A stretch of DNA of 64,000 bases from Gammaproteobacteria bacterium (GTDB lineage Bacteria; Pseudomonadota; Gammaproteobacteria; SZUA-140): the NCBI GenBank assembly GCA_016218365.1, contig JACREF010000009.1:1-64000 (forward strand). Reading direction: 5' to 3'. The number at the start of each line of letters is the position of its first letter. Within the stretch, counting starts at the first letter, position 1. The notes below the pieces were generated by a model. That model saw only the letters and a program-made list of their open reading frames with translations, searched no databases and had not been told where the DNA came from. The translations under genes were made by a program, and so were the position numbers. This document shows, in pieces, positions 8,810-15,437 of this stretch.

Positions 8810-9166
8810 ATGAATACAAGTACTTCGCGGAAAGATTCTGATAACTCTCGGCTGTGGTCCAGTGCCGTGGTTGCAGCCATTCTTTCTGCTGGGATCGTCG
8901 GAACAGTCAACTGGTATATAAATAAAAACGAGGTATCCGTAAAGTATGTCGAAATCGCCGCTGGCATTCTCTCCACAAAATCCCAAGAGAGTGACAAGGA
9001 TTTAAGGGAGTGGGCTATTAATGTTATAAATGAAAATGCACCTTTCTCGCTTGAAATAACAGGAGATTTGAGATCGCGTTTAATTAACGGGGAAACCAGT
9101 TTTTCTGGCATTGTCTCTTTTACCGAAGATGACGATACGGCATCTGTTTCAGGAACTGTGAAATAA
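8810..9166 (+). CDS. Small membrane-anchored protein of unknown function
   Basis: I do not recognise this 118-residue protein. A polar N-terminus with several Ser/Arg/Asp residues precedes one membrane segment (about 18-36, VVAAILSAGIVGTVNWYI). The remaining soluble part (about 40-118) is acidic and would lie outside the membrane if the N-terminus is cytoplasmic. Codon use and base composition are clearly AT-richer than the flanking ubiB gene. It lies just before the first of two palindromic repeats that flank the next genes, so horizontal acquisition is likely. The ribosome-binding site is weak. Confidence 0.5.
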   Translation: MNTSTSRKDSDNSRLWSSAVVAAILSAGIVGTVNWYINKNEVSVKYVEIAAGILSTKSQESDKDLREWAINVINENAPFSLEITGDLRSRLINGETSFSGIVSFTEDDDTASVSGTVK

Positions 9167-9189
9167 TAACGACGCTTTCTATGTTTTGT

Positions 9190-9258
9190 GCGTTATAGAG
9201 GACGGAGGGATTATATTTTGATCAAGTTCAGTTTTTTCAATTAATAATCCCTCCGTCC
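9190..9258. repeat. AT-rich island palindromic repeat, copy 1
   Basis: A 15-bp perfect inverted repeat GGACGGAGGGATTAT (9200-9214) and ATAATCCCTCCGTCC (9244-9258) encloses a 29-nt AT-rich loop. It recurs almost identically at 10177-10240, with homology extending leftwards through GCGTTATAG. It may fold into a stable hairpin and also end transcription of the gene at 8810. Confidence 0.8.
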
Positions 9259-9318
9259 CCTTTACCTTCTTTACCTTATAGGTAATTCTCAATAATCTAG
9301 TTAAGACGGAGAAAAGAT

Positions 9319-9682
9319 ATGAAAAAATTTGCTATTGTTTTGGCATCTATTGTCACCCCCGCTTTAGTGTATGCTGAACCGGTATACTTGGACTGTTACA
9401 CTGAATCCCAGAGAGAGAAGGAGATATTTTCTGTAAAATTGGATGAAGATTCAGGGAAAATCACTCATACAGCAGAAAATGGTAGCGCCTTTAATGCAGA
9501 AGGTTTTTTTTCTGCAACTACGACTTGTAAAATTGATTATCAAGTACGAAATTGATCGCACGAATTTGAAGGTGAAAAGTATTGCCGAAGTTTCAGCAAG
9601 TTATCCAGGCGCAGCGCCTGACACTCCTTCAGTAAGGAGCGGTTCTTGTGATATTGTAAAAATCAACGATCGGAAAATATAG
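9319..9682 (+). pseudogene. Small secreted protein gene, apparently frameshifted
   Basis: Frame 1 starts at ATG 9319, behind a GGAG motif. It encodes a clear signal peptide (MKKFAIVLASIVTPALVYA) and continues to a stop at 9553-9555. Frame 2 then continues convincingly from about 9530 to 9682 with the sequence EIDRTNLKVKSIAE and a Cys near the end. Joining the two frames by removing one base near 9540-9550 gives a secreted protein of about 120 residues with three or four cysteines. I see either a frameshift mutation, a sequencing error or, less likely, programmed frameshifting. The protein family is not recognised. Confidence 0.55.
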
Positions 9683-9767
9683 ACTTAAAAAATACAACTA
9701 AACTTTTGATATGCGCGATCATTCACATGCCTGTTTCCCTGTATTTGGGCGGGCAAATAGGAGCATC

Positions 9768-10154
9768 ATGAAAAAAATGGATGATAATCTCAGTCTTTAT
9801 GCGGAATATAACAAAACTCTACGGGCGTGGCTTGTAGGTTTTGGGTTTGGCGTCCCTGCGCTCTTTATTATCGATAAAGCTGCTCAGGACAAACTCGTAG
9901 CAAATCAGGACGCGATATTTATAATCTCGCTTTTTATTATTGGTGCAGCAGCTCAGGTTTTCATGGCTCAACTGAATAAGATTGTGTCATGGTGCGCATA
10001 CTATAAACACGAAAAGGGACAGTCTAATGTTAATTGTGCCGTTTTATTTTTTTCTTCGCTAGAAAACTACTTTTTAATCGATGTACTACTTGATCTTTTA
10101 TCTCTGAGCGCTTTTGGATGGTCGATTTTCTTGATTGTTGGCCTATTCCTGTAA
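9768..10154 (+). CDS. Predicted multi-pass membrane protein, unknown
   Basis: The ATG at 9768 is preceded by AGGAG at 9759-9763, so it is preferred over the upstream in-frame ATG; this gives 128 residues. Four hydrophobic stretches are seen (about 20-36, 50-68, 85-100 and 105-126), with basic residues near the cytoplasmic ends. No family was recognised. It sits in the AT-rich cassette between the two palindromic repeats. Composition and isolation suggest a mobile or accessory gene. Confidence 0.55.
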   Translation: MKKMDDNLSLYAEYNKTLRAWLVGFGFGVPALFIIDKAAQDKLVANQDAIFIISLFIIGAAAQVFMAQLNKIVSWCAYYKHEKGQSNVNCAVLFFSSLENYFLIDVLLDLLSLSAFGWSIFLIVGLFL

Positions 10155-10176
10155 GAAAACTAATATGTAGAGCCAG

Positions 10177-10240
10177 CGTTATAGGGACGGAGGGATTATA
10201 TTTTGATCAAGTTCAGTTTTGTTCAATTAATAATCCCTCT
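10177..10240. repeat. AT-rich island palindromic repeat, copy 2
   Basis: This copy repeats GGACGGAGGGATTAT and the AT-rich loop of copy 1 with one inserted G. Its right arm is cut short after ATAATCCCTC. It is in the same orientation as copy 1, so the pair forms direct repeats about 985 bp apart around the pseudogene at 9319 and the membrane protein at 9768. Confidence 0.8.
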
Positions 10241-11612: not shown

Positions 11613-11756
11613 GGGTCGGAGAGGAATGGTACTTACTTAAGCGTTTTTGATAGGAGGTAGCCTGGGTTGAACGGAGTGAAACCCGGGTTTCGCTGTCGCT
11701 CAACCCAGGCTACCCGCCGGCTACCTCCTTAAGTAAGTACCATTCGGGTCGGAGAG
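11613..11756. repeat. Composite palindromic repeat element, copy B
   Basis: The 59-bp core (11656-11714) has GGTAGCCTGGGTTGA and TCAACCCAGGCTACC arms. Outer inverted arms AATGGTACTTACTTAAG (from 11625) and CTTAAGTAAGTACCATT (ending about 11744) surround it. GGGTCGGAGAG occurs in direct orientation at both ends (11613 and 11746). About 95 bp are identical to the reverse complement of copy A. Confidence 0.85.
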
Positions 11757-11858: not shown

Positions 11859-12332
11859 TTAGCGATACATCGCGGGAAAAAACCGCCCAAGCAGCCAGTG
11901 ATCAACCGCAAGTTTGCCTAGTCCGCCGAGCATCAGCACCAGCAACATGATGCCCCAGGCCTGATGGTCATAGGCCGCGGCCGGGTCGAGGTCCGGGTAG
12001 CTGATGACGGCCATGATATTGAAGGCGAACAGCATCAGCGCGCTGAGGCGTCCGGCCAGTCCAATGATCAACAGCACGGGCAACACCAGTTCGATGAAGG
12101 TCGCGAGCCAGGCGGCCAGTTCCGGTGGCAGCAGCGGCACCTGGTATTCGTAGTTAAACAGGTACAGTGTCGAATCCCAGCTGGTGGTCTTCAAGTAACC
12201 AGACTTCAGGAAGGCCCAGCCGACCCATAGTCGCATGATCAGCAGGCCGAGCGGGGACAGCCAGTCCAGAATCCGCGCAGCATGCCGGGTCAGGCCAGCC
12301 AGTTGGTCAATCACAGGATGATGTACTTTCAT
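11859..12332 (-). CDS. DoxX family membrane protein of the bufferin cluster
   Basis: This 157-residue protein has about four membrane segments (about 25-45, 65-90, 90-115, 120-145) and fits the DoxX family. DoxX-like proteins accompany many bufferin clusters, where they are proposed to act in electron transfer or membrane redox steps; that role is not proven. Its ATG overlaps the bufC stop by 4 bp (ATGA). It is the last gene of the bufA-bufB-bufC-doxX operon on the minus strand. Confidence 0.85.
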   Translation of the reverse strand: MKVHHPVIDQLAGLTRHAARILDWLSPLGLLIMRLWVGWAFLKSGYLKTTSWDSTLYLFNYEYQVPLLPPELAAWLATFIELVLPVLLIIGLAGRLSALMLFAFNIMAVISYPDLDPAAAYDHQAWGIMLLVLMLGGLGKLAVDHWLLGRFFPAMYR

Positions 12333-13105
12333 GGTGTGTTCTCAATGATCATCAGCTCACTGAACAGCTGGCGCTGCAGACCGAACTGGATGACGCGGCT
12401 GATGGCGGAGGGGCCGGAGACCGCGTTCAGCAGTGTGCCGACACGGTGGCCGGCCGCCAGCAGCGCCAGCAGTCGATAGTGCGGCTCGTCCAGCCGTGTG
12501 ATCTCGACCTCGTCAAGATGGCGGTAGATGAGCAGTCTATCGCCGCCTGCGTTGAGGTCGATGGTGGGCACTTCATCGCTGTCAGCACGATTGGCCAGCC
12601 AGATGCGCAGCGCTGGATAATCTGAGCGTAGCAACCGCAACGCCGGTTGCATCGTGAACATCAGGTCGGCATAACCGCCGGCGGCAATACGTTGTTGCTG
12701 CACATCAGACAATGGTGCGCCGGCGCCGGCATGAAAGGCCTGGTGATAGGCCAGCTCCAGCCGTGCGACATCGGGCAGGTAGGGCAGTGGACGGGTCGGT
12801 GCAAACCCGCGCAGAAACTCAGGGAGGTGCGCGCCGAAGTGATGGATATTGCCGGAACGCGACGGCGCGTGTCCGGCATAGATCCGGGTCATTGCGGCAA
12901 AGAATTCATCGCCGACCAGCCGCCTGACCACCGGATATATCGCCGCCAGCGCGTCCTCGATGTTGATGCGGAAATTATTGCGGTAGGCCGTCAGCCGGCC
13001 GGGATTGAGCAAGGTGTCGTGCCACAGCGACTCATGCTGAGCCGCTGCGTGAGCGTCTACGATGGCCGACGCGAATTGCCGTTGCAGTTCAGGCAGTGAC
13101 AGCAT
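12329..13105 (-). CDS. BufC-like DUF2063 protein (RiPP modification partner)
   Basis: DUF2063 proteins (HvfC/BufC N-terminal domain) pair with DUF692 enzymes in bufferin and related RiPP systems and probably deliver the precursor to the modifying enzyme. The 258-residue protein starts MLSLPELQRQF, then has the typical YRNNFRINIEDALAAIYPVV block and the HHFGAHLPEFLRGF segment. The start at 13105 is chosen because GGAG lies 7 nt upstream and family members begin this way. It overlaps the DUF692 gene by 17 bp, so the two products are probably made in stoichiometric coupling. Confidence 0.9.
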   Translation of the reverse strand: MLSLPELQRQFASAIVDAHAAAQHESLWHDTLLNPGRLTAYRNNFRINIEDALAAIYPVVRRLVGDEFFAAMTRIYAGHAPSRSGNIHHFGAHLPEFLRGFAPTRPLPYLPDVARLELAYHQAFHAGAGAPLSDVQQQRIAAGGYADLMFTMQPALRLLRSDYPALRIWLANRADSDEVPTIDLNAGGDRLLIYRHLDEVEITRLDEPHYRLLALLAAGHRVGTLLNAVSGPSAISRVIQFGLQRQLFSELMIIENTP

Positions 13106-13994
13106 GGTCAGACTCCATGATCGACTGTGCGTGTTCTGCTTCACTGAGTAATACTTCCAGCGCGGGCAGGGCGGCGTCCCATTCGATCAGCACCGGGACG
13201 GAGGCCAGCCGTGGCATCGCAAAGCGGTACAATGCCCATACCTCATCGGAGACCCTCTGGTCATGGGTGTCGATGAGGAACGGCACGCCATCGATGACGC
13301 GCCGCGTGTGGCCGGCCAGATGGACCTCATCGACCAGCGCGGCCGGGATCGCGGCAAGATACTGCCGGGCATCGAAATGGTGATTGACGGCGCTGACATA
13401 GACATTGTTGATGTCGAGCAACAGCCGGCAGCCGCTGCGCCTTGCCAGTTCGGGCATGAATTCCCATTCCGGCATGGTCGAGTGGGTGTATTGCACATAG
13501 CTGGACAGGTTCTCGATCAAGAGCGGACGACCGAGAAAGTCCTGTGCCTGCTGAATCCGGTTGACCAGATGATTCAGCGCCTCTTCAGTATAGGGCAGTG
13601 GCAGCAGGTCATGCAGGTGCCGGCCATCGACCGAACACCAGGCCGCATGCTCCGACACCAGGGCCGGTTGCACACGTTCGATCAGTTGTTTGAGTTGGCG
13701 CAGATGTTCAAGATCGAGTGGATCGACGGAGCCGAGCGACAGGCCGACGCCATGCAGGCTCAGCGGGTAATGCTCGCGCAGCCGTTCCAGCCACGTCAGC
13801 GGCAGACTGCCCTCGCCAAAATAGTTTTCACTGTGCACCTCGAGCCAGCCGATGGCCGGCCGGGTCTGCAGCAGCGCGTGGTAATGTTCGGCGCGCAGGC
13901 CAATCCCGGCCGCGGCCGGGATGGTCTGGCTGGCCCCGGTAACGGATGTTACCCGGGGTGTCGCGGTCAGCGGGCTGGCCATTGCCCGGTTCAC
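13089..13994 (-). CDS. DUF692 multinuclear iron oxidase (BufB-like)
   Basis: DUF692 enzymes (MNIO family) use a multinuclear non-heme iron centre to modify cysteines in RiPP precursors; for bufferins, formation of thiooxazole-type groups that bind copper is established. This 301-residue protein shows the TIM-barrel pattern with candidate metal ligands in SLHGVGLSLGS, VSEHAAW, LLIENLSSYV, LLLDINNVYV, DEVHLAGH and LIDTHDQ. A GTG at 13994 overlaps the bufA stop (GTGA); an ATG 12 bp downstream is the alternative start. Its own end overlaps bufC by 17 bp. Confidence 0.94.
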   Translation of the reverse strand: MNRAMASPLTATPRVTSVTGASQTIPAAAGIGLRAEHYHALLQTRPAIGWLEVHSENYFGEGSLPLTWLERLREHYPLSLHGVGLSLGSVDPLDLEHLRQLKQLIERVQPALVSEHAAWCSVDGRHLHDLLPLPYTEEALNHLVNRIQQAQDFLGRPLLIENLSSYVQYTHSTMPEWEFMPELARRSGCRLLLDINNVYVSAVNHHFDARQYLAAIPAALVDEVHLAGHTRRVIDGVPFLIDTHDQRVSDEVWALYRFAMPRLASVPVLIEWDAALPALEVLLSEAEHAQSIMESDHAVTA

Positions 13995-14254
13995 ATCGAG
14001 GTCAGGCTGCCGTTGACGATCTTTTCGCAGGTGCCCTTGGGCACCAGCACGAATGCCGTCGCCAGCCCGTCGCGTTCTGCATGACCGGCGCAGGAATTCG
14101 ACGCGGTCTTGCAGTCATTCTTGCCGGCCTTGACGATGCCATAACATTTTTCCATATCGGCCTTGGCGGCCAAGGCCGGGCTGGCGGCGCCGAGCATGCC
14201 GACGGCGATGACCGTGGCCATCAATGCGGGAACGGTAATCTTCTGATGATTCAT
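13991..14254 (-). CDS. Bufferin precursor BufA1-type (DUF2282) protein
   Basis: This 87-residue exported RiPP precursor has a signal peptide of about 29 residues (ending ASPALA) and a mature part with four cysteines. The cysteines lie in EKCYG, NDCKT, NSCAG and GTCEK, which is the DUF2282/bufferin pattern. Modified bufferins sequester copper in the periplasm in studied bacteria. AAAGGAGA lies 6 nt before the ATG. The gene is first in the operon and has a candidate ECF promoter at 14342-14366. Whether this peptide binds copper or another metal cannot be read from the sequence. Confidence 0.93.
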   Translation of the reverse strand: MNHQKITVPALMATVIAVGMLGAASPALAAKADMEKCYGIVKAGKNDCKTASNSCAGHAERDGLATAFVLVPKGTCEKIVNGSLTSM

Positions 14255-14341
14255 GATGTCTCCTTTGTAAGCTGTGATTGAGATAAGCGCCGCGCCGCGG
14301 GTCCGGTGATGACCGTCGGGCGTGTCGCGTTCGGGGATGGA

Positions 14342-14366
14342 GACGCAGCAGCGGCGGGAATGTTAC
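14342..14366 (-). promoter_or_regulatory. Candidate ECF sigma promoter of the bufferin operon
   Basis: On the minus strand GTAAC (14366-14362), 16 bp, and CGTC (14345-14342) form an ECF-type -35/-10 pair. It would start transcription about 80 nt before the bufA ATG. The AAC-type -35 and CGTC-type -10 are common ECF promoter features; use by the sigma factor at 14631 is inferred. The same pair was not found upstream of the sigma gene itself. Confidence 0.5.
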
Positions 14367-14382
14367 AACAGCAGTGAAAAAA

Positions 14383-14634
14383 TTATTGCTTGTGATTCTG
14401 GTCGGCGCGGTGGGCCTTCAGCAGGCGCGCAAGCTGATCGTCAAGCTGTTTGGGATCAGTGGCTTGTTTGACGCGGGCCAGCGCAGCGATGGTCGTTGCC
14501 AGCTGGCGGATGAAGTTGCGGCAGTCGACGCAGATAAACAGGTGCAGCCGGAATTTGATCCGGTCCCAGCGCGACAGCCGGCGCTCCAGATAGTCGCTGG
14601 CGTGTGCATGGATGTCACGGCATTTGAACATCAC
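14383..14634 (-). CDS. Zinc-finger anti-sigma factor (zf-HC2)
   Basis: The 83-residue protein contains a ZAS/zf-HC2 motif: a cysteine near the N-terminus (FKCRDI) and HLFICVDC, which is the H-x3-C-x2-C signature. It lacks a membrane segment, so it is probably a soluble zinc-binding anti-sigma factor that holds the ECF factor encoded immediately upstream. Its start overlaps the sigma stop (GTG at 14634 or ATG at 14631), an arrangement typical of sigma/anti-sigma pairs. It could respond to metal or thiol stress, which would fit control of a metallophore cluster. Confidence 0.85.
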   Translation of the reverse strand: MMFKCRDIHAHASDYLERRLSRWDRIKFRLHLFICVDCRNFIRQLATTIAALARVKQATDPKQLDDQLARLLKAHRADQNHKQ

Positions 14635-15218
14635 TCGGGCTCACCCTTTTCAAAACGGTCGATCGTCTGCCACACCCGCAGCCGGGCCCGATGCAGCAGC
14701 ACTCGACAGTTAGACGCGCTGACATCGAGAATCTTACAGATGTCGTCGATCTCCAGCCCTTCGATGTCGCGCAGCAGCAACACCGCACGCTGGCCATCGG
14801 GCAGCCCCTGAAGGGCACCCTCCAGCGCCTGTTGCAACTGCTCGCTCTCGAGCAGCCGTTCCGGCGTGTCGTGATGCCAGTGGCCGCGCGGCTCGGACCA
14901 GTGGCCATCGGCCTTGAACAGGGTTTCGATGTCGGCGGCATCGCCGACCGCGACCGATCGGATCTCGTGGCGGCGCCGGCTCTTCGCGGTGTTGCTGACG
15001 ATCTGCAATATCCAGGTCTTCAGGCTCGACCGGCCCTCGAACTTCGGCAGGGCGCGCAACACCGCCAGCCAGGCATCCTGCACTACCTCCTCGGCGATGT
15101 CGCGGTCGATGATGCCGCGTGCAACGTACAGCATCAGCCCCTGATAGTCGCTGACCACCTGGCGGAAGGCGGCTTCATCACCGGCGATCAGCCTGTTGAC
15201 CAGTTCCTGTTCATGCAT
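14631..15218 (-). CDS. ECF RNA polymerase sigma factor
   Basis: This 195-residue sigma70-family ECF factor starts MHEQELVNRLIAGDEAAFR. Region 2 contains DIAEEVVQDAWLAVLRALP and LKTWILQIVSNTAKSRRR; region 4 contains LPDGQRAVLLLRDIEGLE and the helix-turn-helix DICKILDVSASNCRVLLHRAR. The ATG at 15218 is preferred because the longer frame runs through repeat copy C. It is co-encoded with the zinc-finger anti-sigma factor, and the next gene downstream is the bufferin operon. This matches sigma-factor-controlled bufferin loci known elsewhere, although the anti-sigma type differs from NrsF. Confidence 0.93.
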   Translation of the reverse strand: MHEQELVNRLIAGDEAAFRQVVSDYQGLMLYVARGIIDRDIAEEVVQDAWLAVLRALPKFEGRSSLKTWILQIVSNTAKSRRRHEIRSVAVGDAADIETLFKADGHWSEPRGHWHHDTPERLLESEQLQQALEGALQGLPDGQRAVLLLRDIEGLEIDDICKILDVSASNCRVLLHRARLRVWQTIDRFEKGEPE

Positions 15219-15305: not shown

Positions 15306-15437
15306 GGTCAGAGTAGAATGGCACTTACTTAAGCGTTTTTGATAGGAGGTAGCCTGGGTTGAGCGACAGCGAAACCCGGGTTTCACTCCGTTCAACCCAG
15401 GCTACCTCCTTAAGTAAGTGCCATTCGGGTCAGAGTA
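15306..15437. repeat. Composite palindromic repeat element, copy C
   Basis: The same 59-bp core lies at 15348-15406. GGTCAGAGTA occurs in direct orientation at both ends (15306-15315 and 15428-15437), and the inner arms GGCACTTACTTAAG and CTTAAGTAAGTGCC are inverted. The core has the gagcgacagcgaaac order of copy A. It sits about 90 bp upstream of the ECF sigma gene start and could affect transcription there. Confidence 0.85.

Follow-up and report, generated by a model that had tools for sequence, protein, structure and literature searches.

A Buf1-type bufferin operon probably governed by an adjacent sigma factor and a soluble zinc-thiol anti-sigma factor

The bufferins form a large family of modified, copper-binding peptides that was named only recently, and the control of their genes is for the most part unexplained. 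Here, we examine a bufferin locus in a 64,000-nucleotide stretch (the window) of contig JACREF010000009.1 from a gammaproteobacterium of the SZUA-140 lineage, whose 2.26-Mb genome assembly is 97% complete and was covered by pattern searches and family searches. The six-gene arrangement that had been read from the sequence is real, with all six genes present on the minus strand between positions 11859 and 15218. Judged by its protein families, the locus is a Buf1 bufferin cluster with the order bufA-bufB-bufC plus doxX. We consider it probable that this operon stands under a dedicated switch, composed of an extracytoplasmic function (ECF) sigma factor and a soluble zinc-binding anti-sigma (ZAS) factor, and that the periplasmic methionine-sulfoxide repair system MsrPQ is co-regulated with it. 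The useful result is the prediction of a regulon with two targets, bufABC-doxX and msrPQ, for which both a defined promoter and a soluble switch based on cysteines are proposed.

The family assignments of the original prediction (ECF, anti-sigma, DUF2282, DUF692, DUF2063, DoxX) all returned as Pfam matches above cut-off, with Pfam and NCBIfam concordant on every gene. The precursor gene bufA (13991..14254; 87 residues) scores 84 bits against DUF2282 (PF10048; cut-off, 22.4), and its Cys37, Cys48, Cys55 and Cys76 are each 0.99 to 1.0 conserved among 72 relatives. A hydrophobic segment at residues 5 to 30 is followed by ALA-A, which we read, from hydropathy only, as a Sec-type signal peptide; both the signal peptide and the four-cysteine DUF2282 pattern had been proposed before and are borne out. 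The Buf2 family is not matched, the peptide reaching 35 bits against the BufA2 model NF050166 (cut-off, 60) and having four cysteines versus six. The product of bufB (13089..13994; up to 301 residues), the MNIO (DUF692) maturase, scores 367.6 bits against MbnB_TglH_ChrH (cut-off, 25) and 396 against the NCBIfam equivalog 'MNIO family bufferin maturase' (NF050167; cut-off, 310). Across 81 sequences, a set of histidines, aspartates, glutamates and asparagines is invariant (H37, H54, H81, H116, E161, D194, H225, D242 and H244, among others), and these match conserved stretches of the solved MNIOs 3BWW, TglH and MbnB. Genome-wide, there is one MNIO gene and one DUF2282 gene, both in the operon.

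The partner protein BufC (12329..13105; 258 residues from the ATG, with an alternative GTG at 13144) combines DUF2063 (PF09836; 84.3 bits, cut-off 27.2) with an RRE domain (PME type 1). Its AlphaFold2 model (pLDDT, 84) has as best fold matches in the PDB TglI (8hi7) and NGO1945 (3dee), at E 1e-5, while phmmer searches of PDB sequences with BufC and the anti-sigma factor returned nothing useful. NGO1945 is described as a Neisseria MNIO partner with DUF2063 and RRE-type domains (PMC12452194), and it belongs to the SigE/MseR operon discussed below. The last gene, doxX (11859..12332; 157 residues), encodes a DoxX-family membrane protein (64.6 bits; cut-off, 23.6). Against the NCBIfam equivalogs HvfC and HvfX, the bufC and doxX products stay under the cut-offs. 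In Buf1 bufferins, the central cysteines carry the modification, whereas the outer pair is joined in a disulfide, and copper sequestration has been reported for characterised DUF2282 peptides (PMC12452194). Both the thiooxazole chemistry and copper as the metal would be carried over to the window from these relatives.

The sigma factor gene (14631..15218; 195 residues) encodes Sigma70_r2 and r4_2 domains above the Pfam cut-offs, yet its product falls below every NCBIfam ECF equivalog cut-off (best, PRK11922 with 126 versus 204; TIGR02943 with 114.4 versus 162.2). The 82-residue anti-sigma factor (14383..14631) matches zf-HC2 (34.1 bits; cut-off, 22.2) and NF052368 (61.6 bits; cut-off, 50). The H-x3-C-x2-C pattern noted originally is correct and extends to C4-x25-H30-x3-C34-x2-C37, invariant in 13 aligned sequences; with the signature C/H-x23-26-H-x3-C-x2-C and a gene that immediately follows that of an ECF sigma factor, the protein is of the ZAS type. 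Its maximum 19-residue hydropathy is 0.98, so it lacks a transmembrane segment. The best PDB matches of its model were RslA chains, with ChrR lower, and were weak (E ≥ 0.29). The Cys/His register is identical to that of Neisseria MseR, in which Cys4, Cys34 and Cys37 are important to its function as an anti-sigma factor and correspond to positions in RsrA (PMC2893595). NrsF (PF06532) has no match in the source genome.

The six genes had been described as contiguous, and the overlaps indeed exist: TGATG between the sigma and anti-sigma genes (ATG start at 14631; GTGA if the alternative GTG at 14634 is used), GTGA between bufA and bufB, 17 bp between bufB and bufC counted from the ATG, and ATGA between bufC and doxX. 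Contiguity fails, however, between the anti-sigma gene and bufA, which are separated by 128 bp (14255-14382) holding the predicted promoter. This makes a pair of transcription units, ecf-asf and bufABC-doxX, likelier than a single one, with the sigma factor from ecf-asf probably driving bufABC-doxX. The arrangement is not due to chance: loci L012 and L107 have the same gene order, and most of 80 related loci share the core. Searches of the region showed no notable sigma-70 promoter ahead of the genes and neither a terminator nor an Rfam family.

The predicted ECF-dependent promoter, TGTAACATTCCCGCCGCTGCTGCGTCT, lies on the minus strand (14367-14341), ∼87 bp before bufA, and comprises a -35 element TGTAAC, a 17-nt spacer and a -10 element GTCT. 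The spacing is equal in relatives sharing the sigma factor, where the motif precedes bufA, hvfA or buf2A genes. Counting only loci picked by ECF adjacency, TGTAAC-N17-GTCT stands before the MNIO-peptide gene in 6/7 (the window, L107, L012, L113, L114 and L115, not L120), in the correct orientation and at N17 spacing only; the fixed-spacing test also took in L034 and L111, but these had been retained after the motif was seen and are not counted. We estimate the chance of a match to nine fixed bases at ∼0.001 per 300-bp region. Matches inside the ECF genes of genomes G160, G002 and G233 fall in a conserved C-N-I-L-D stretch and were dismissed as coding coincidence. On this promoter evidence, the adjacent sigma factor very probably controls the bufferin operon, as originally supposed.

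Genome-wide, the exact motif has two matches, one before bufA and the other before msrP, where it ends 66 bp ahead of the ATG, with msrQ next downstream. We estimate at ∼3e-5 the probability that a given random match would land, correctly oriented, in the 150 bp ahead of msrP. G338, a genome from another family that has the nearest sigma factor and contains L107, independently carries the motif before both bufA and msrPQ. A third copy there precedes an extra operon gene (L107, 4106-5302) between the anti-sigma gene and bufA, probably encoding a secreted beta-propeller protein of the 6-phosphogluconolactonase-like kind. In G160 and G002, the motif stands ahead of an HvfA-HvfX-MsrPQ operon. A regulon of the bufferin operon plus MsrPQ is thus likely from the placement of these predicted promoters. 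No exact motif was found at full msrP in the arsenosugar-ECF genomes G197, G296, G101, G318 and G010, nor at msrP in G262 and G213; ArsS-linked ECF loci mostly lack it (1 of 8 has it) and were set aside as evidence. As a separate observation, L113 (6150-8755) and L114 (8740-11574) have genes for an HvfA-type precursor, HvfX and MsrPQ in succession, divergent from the ECF-ZAS pair; no MNIO or DUF2063 gene was found adjoining these operons.

We picture the switch as follows. In unstressed cells, the zinc-bound anti-sigma factor would keep the sigma factor captive in the cytoplasm until the Cys4/Cys34/Cys37 zinc-thiol site is oxidised or metallated, perhaps by a soft metal such as Cu(I) or an electrophilic oxidant. 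The freed sigma factor would then read TGTAAC-N17-GTCT ahead of bufA and msrPQ, the one step of the scheme that the sequence itself supports. By analogy with characterised bufferins, BufBC may turn the central Cys48 and Cys55 of BufA into thiooxazoles prior to Sec export, and a Cys37-Cys76 disulfide may form in the mature peptide, which would buffer periplasmic copper while MsrPQ would repair oxidised methionines in the same compartment and DoxX would assist in the membrane. In Escherichia coli, MsrPQ is copper-induced and protects a copper chaperone (PMC9302797), so copper and oxidant signals are not mutually exclusive. More broadly, we see about an even chance that a regulon joining a bufferin to methionine-sulfoxide repair in the periplasm recurs, captured independently by unrelated switches of the membrane NrsF type, the TIGR02943-type ECF-ZAS kind and the window-clade ECF-ZAS kind. 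If so, the ZAS versions would sense through a cytoplasmic zinc-thiol site, not a periplasmic or membrane signal, and a peptide acting outside the cytoplasm would be controlled from inside.

For the distribution of such switches, we used a class sample of 369 genomes, 96 of which have DUF2282, and scored ZAS or NrsF matches at ≤6 kb from it. ZAS lies beside DUF2282 in nine of the 96 genomes and NrsF in four, which suggests that surveys restricted to NrsF missed the commoner anti-sigma partner in this class. Two ECF lineages have been paired with ZAS and bufferins: in the seven ZAS-linked genomes besides the source and G338, the ECF is closer to the TIGR02943-type query, with the ZAS-associated bufferin loci L024, L029, L036 and L055 above the TIGR02943 cut-off, whereas the window, L012 and G338 share a distinct ECF. 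Relatives of the latter (E ≤ 1e-30) occur in 16 other genomes of the 369, all with an adjacent ZAS protein and with varying cargo: bufferin genes, HvfA with HvfX and MsrPQ, Buf2 or, most often, arsenosugar genes. An ECF gene next to the cluster is absent from most of the related bufferin loci. Within the source family, a BufB relative was found in 0/19 other genomes; the operon is therefore sporadic, either gained here or lost elsewhere.

Some of the other cargo deserves mention in its own right. About nine genomes (L108-L112, L116, L117, L119 and L121) have the ECF-ZAS pair beside arsenosugar genes (ArsS, TIGR04283 and TIGR04282; names profile-tested on L110 and otherwise assigned via sequence clustering), which suggests that a related signal might be stress from arsenic or on thiols. 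In L115 (5138-6900) and L120 (5950-7531), ECF-ZAS pairs are divergent from Buf2-type precursors (L120, 88 bits against the BufA2 cut-off of 60). These two loci run counter to the published statement that Buf2 clusters have no sigma genes, and suggest that sigma/ZAS pairs accompany Buf2-type loci too. In L115, the anti-sigma factor is extended by a hydrophobic segment and by a C-terminal domain.

Two copies of a palindromic ∼122-bp repeat resembling a miniature inverted-repeat transposable element bracket the operon, and one of them begins 88 bp ahead of the sigma gene. The genome has ∼36 copies, with direct GGTCGGAGAG or GGTCAGAGTA repeats on either side, and those in the window lie at 11614-11755, 15306-15435 and 2829-2933. 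Transfer of the operon by these repeats is not supported, given their genome-wide spread and the uniform composition. Near the operon's downstream neighbour, positions 9000-10200 have a GC content of 0.39 versus ∼0.6 and contain small hypothetical genes.

Several observations weigh against a dedicated switch of this design. In the source genome, exact motif matches are fewer than those of a reversed-pattern control (2 versus 6); with no enrichment, the regulon case rests on position, not number. The motif is absent before the ecf gene itself, so that the autoregulation often seen with switches of this kind is not expected here. MseR gave no response to the oxidants tested (PMC2893595), which leaves the signal assignment weak, and in Cupriavidus metallidurans deletion of the adjacent sigma gene rpoQ does not abolish induction of the gig bufferin operon (PMC10304878). 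The unsupported rpoQ dependence also speaks for the ECF/anti-sigma pair being an incidental neighbour, with some other factor driving the bufferin operon, as do the frequent pairing of this clade's ECF-ZAS with other cargo, notably arsenosugar genes, and the many bufferin loci that do without an adjacent ECF. Yet the motif is kept at the same spacing before bufA across families sharing the ECF, is largely missing from bufferin loci without a window-type ECF, and comes with a shared gene order in L012 and L107, which makes mere adjacency very unlikely.

A more serious contender, though still an unlikely one, accepts the same genes and regulon and sees mainly an envelope oxidant response (hypochlorous acid, N-chloramines, singlet oxygen) with copper secondary, the modified peptide protecting through redox chemistry or holding copper released by oxidation. 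MsrPQ as the second predicted target fits it, and so do the HvfA, HvfX and MsrPQ genes united in single operons in L113 and L114 and the Haemophilus RpoE2/HrsE system, a soluble ZAS switch that is induced by hypochlorous acid and H2O2 and controls msrAB and a DoxX/MNIO cluster (PMC7907618). Characterised DUF2282 peptides, however, reportedly sequester copper (PMC12452194), and the copper induction of E. coli MsrPQ robs that target of discriminating power. We give almost no credence to the cluster being a recent or decaying acquisition without a working product: its absence from the other family genomes and the bracketing repeats could be so read, but all six frames are intact, the diagnostic residues are all conserved and the composition is like that of the surrounding genome. 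A dedicated ECF-ZAS switch over bufABC-doxX and msrPQ hence remains our preferred reading.

How does this arrangement compare with known systems? In Caulobacter crescentus, the sigmaF/NrsF regulon (CC3252-CC3257, CC2905-2907 and CC2748) likewise has an ECF gene adjoining DUF2282-DUF692-DUF2063-DoxX, a YedY/MsrP-type member (CC2748) and a -35 GTAAC; it differs in that NrsF is a six-helix membrane anti-sigma factor, the promoter is GTAACC-N16-CGAA and sigF has its own promoter of that kind (PMC3511200). A Caulobacter-like TGTAAC-N15-18-CGAA was not found in the msrP regions or the other ZAS-bufferin loci, the -10 here being GTCT. With sigmaF governing the same two functions through NrsF, the bufferin plus MsrP regulon looks convergent. 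Sinorhizobium meliloti RpoE7/EcfR7, when overexpressed, induces SMb20530-20527 (genes for a small membrane-type protein, DUF692 and DUF2063), whose promoter region contains TGTAAC with a -10 region of GCGAA instead (PMC6180224). The C. metallidurans gigPABT operon resembles the window in having DUF2282 adjoining an ECF/anti-sigma pair (rpoQ-rsqA) and is copper- and gold-induced, with the differences that the layout is divergent and RsqA is predicted to be membrane-bound (PMC10304878).

Closest in its switch is the Neisseria SigE/MseR operon (NMB2140-NMB2145), where the soluble ZAS protein MseR has the same Cys4/His30/Cys34/Cys37 as the window anti-sigma factor and is co-transcribed with DoxX and three function-unassigned genes (PMC2893595), which we take to encode the precursor and the DUF692 and DUF2063 proteins. 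Haemophilus HrsE, a 67-residue cytoplasmic protein, has the same motif class, and RpoE2 controls a DoxX/COG3220/DUF2063 cluster (PMC7907618). Both systems control a DoxX/DUF2063/DUF692/peptide operon plus a periplasmic methionine sulfoxide reductase; in contrast to the window, they have an EGKCG/oxazolin-type precursor in place of DUF2282, and the reductase is MsrAB, not MsrPQ. The window ECF, under the TIGR02943 cut-off, is set apart from SigE/RpoE2 by family score, not direct comparison. With MseR-type proteins already placed over MNIO-peptide operons, the soluble ZAS here is only partly new. Of the original prediction, then, the cluster type and sigma control stand, the soluble anti-sigma factor as a departure from known loci does not, and the internal promoter and the msrPQ target had been missed. 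Its suggestion that the inducing signal may differ from that of NrsF is a reasonable one. The published survey names NrsF as the anti-sigma factor of Buf1 clusters without mentioning a ZAS over a DUF2282 operon (PMC12452194), and we found no openly accessible paper that links bufferins to a ZAS anti-sigma factor, subscription literature being mostly outside the search. Although every component belongs to a familiar type, the pairing of a soluble zinc-thiol inhibitor with a DUF2282 peptide appears not to have been described previously. Against Neisseria and Haemophilus, the novelty is the DUF2282 (Buf1) precursor, and the locus combines ordinary bufferin genes with a variant form of regulation that has been described too little but is not without precedent.

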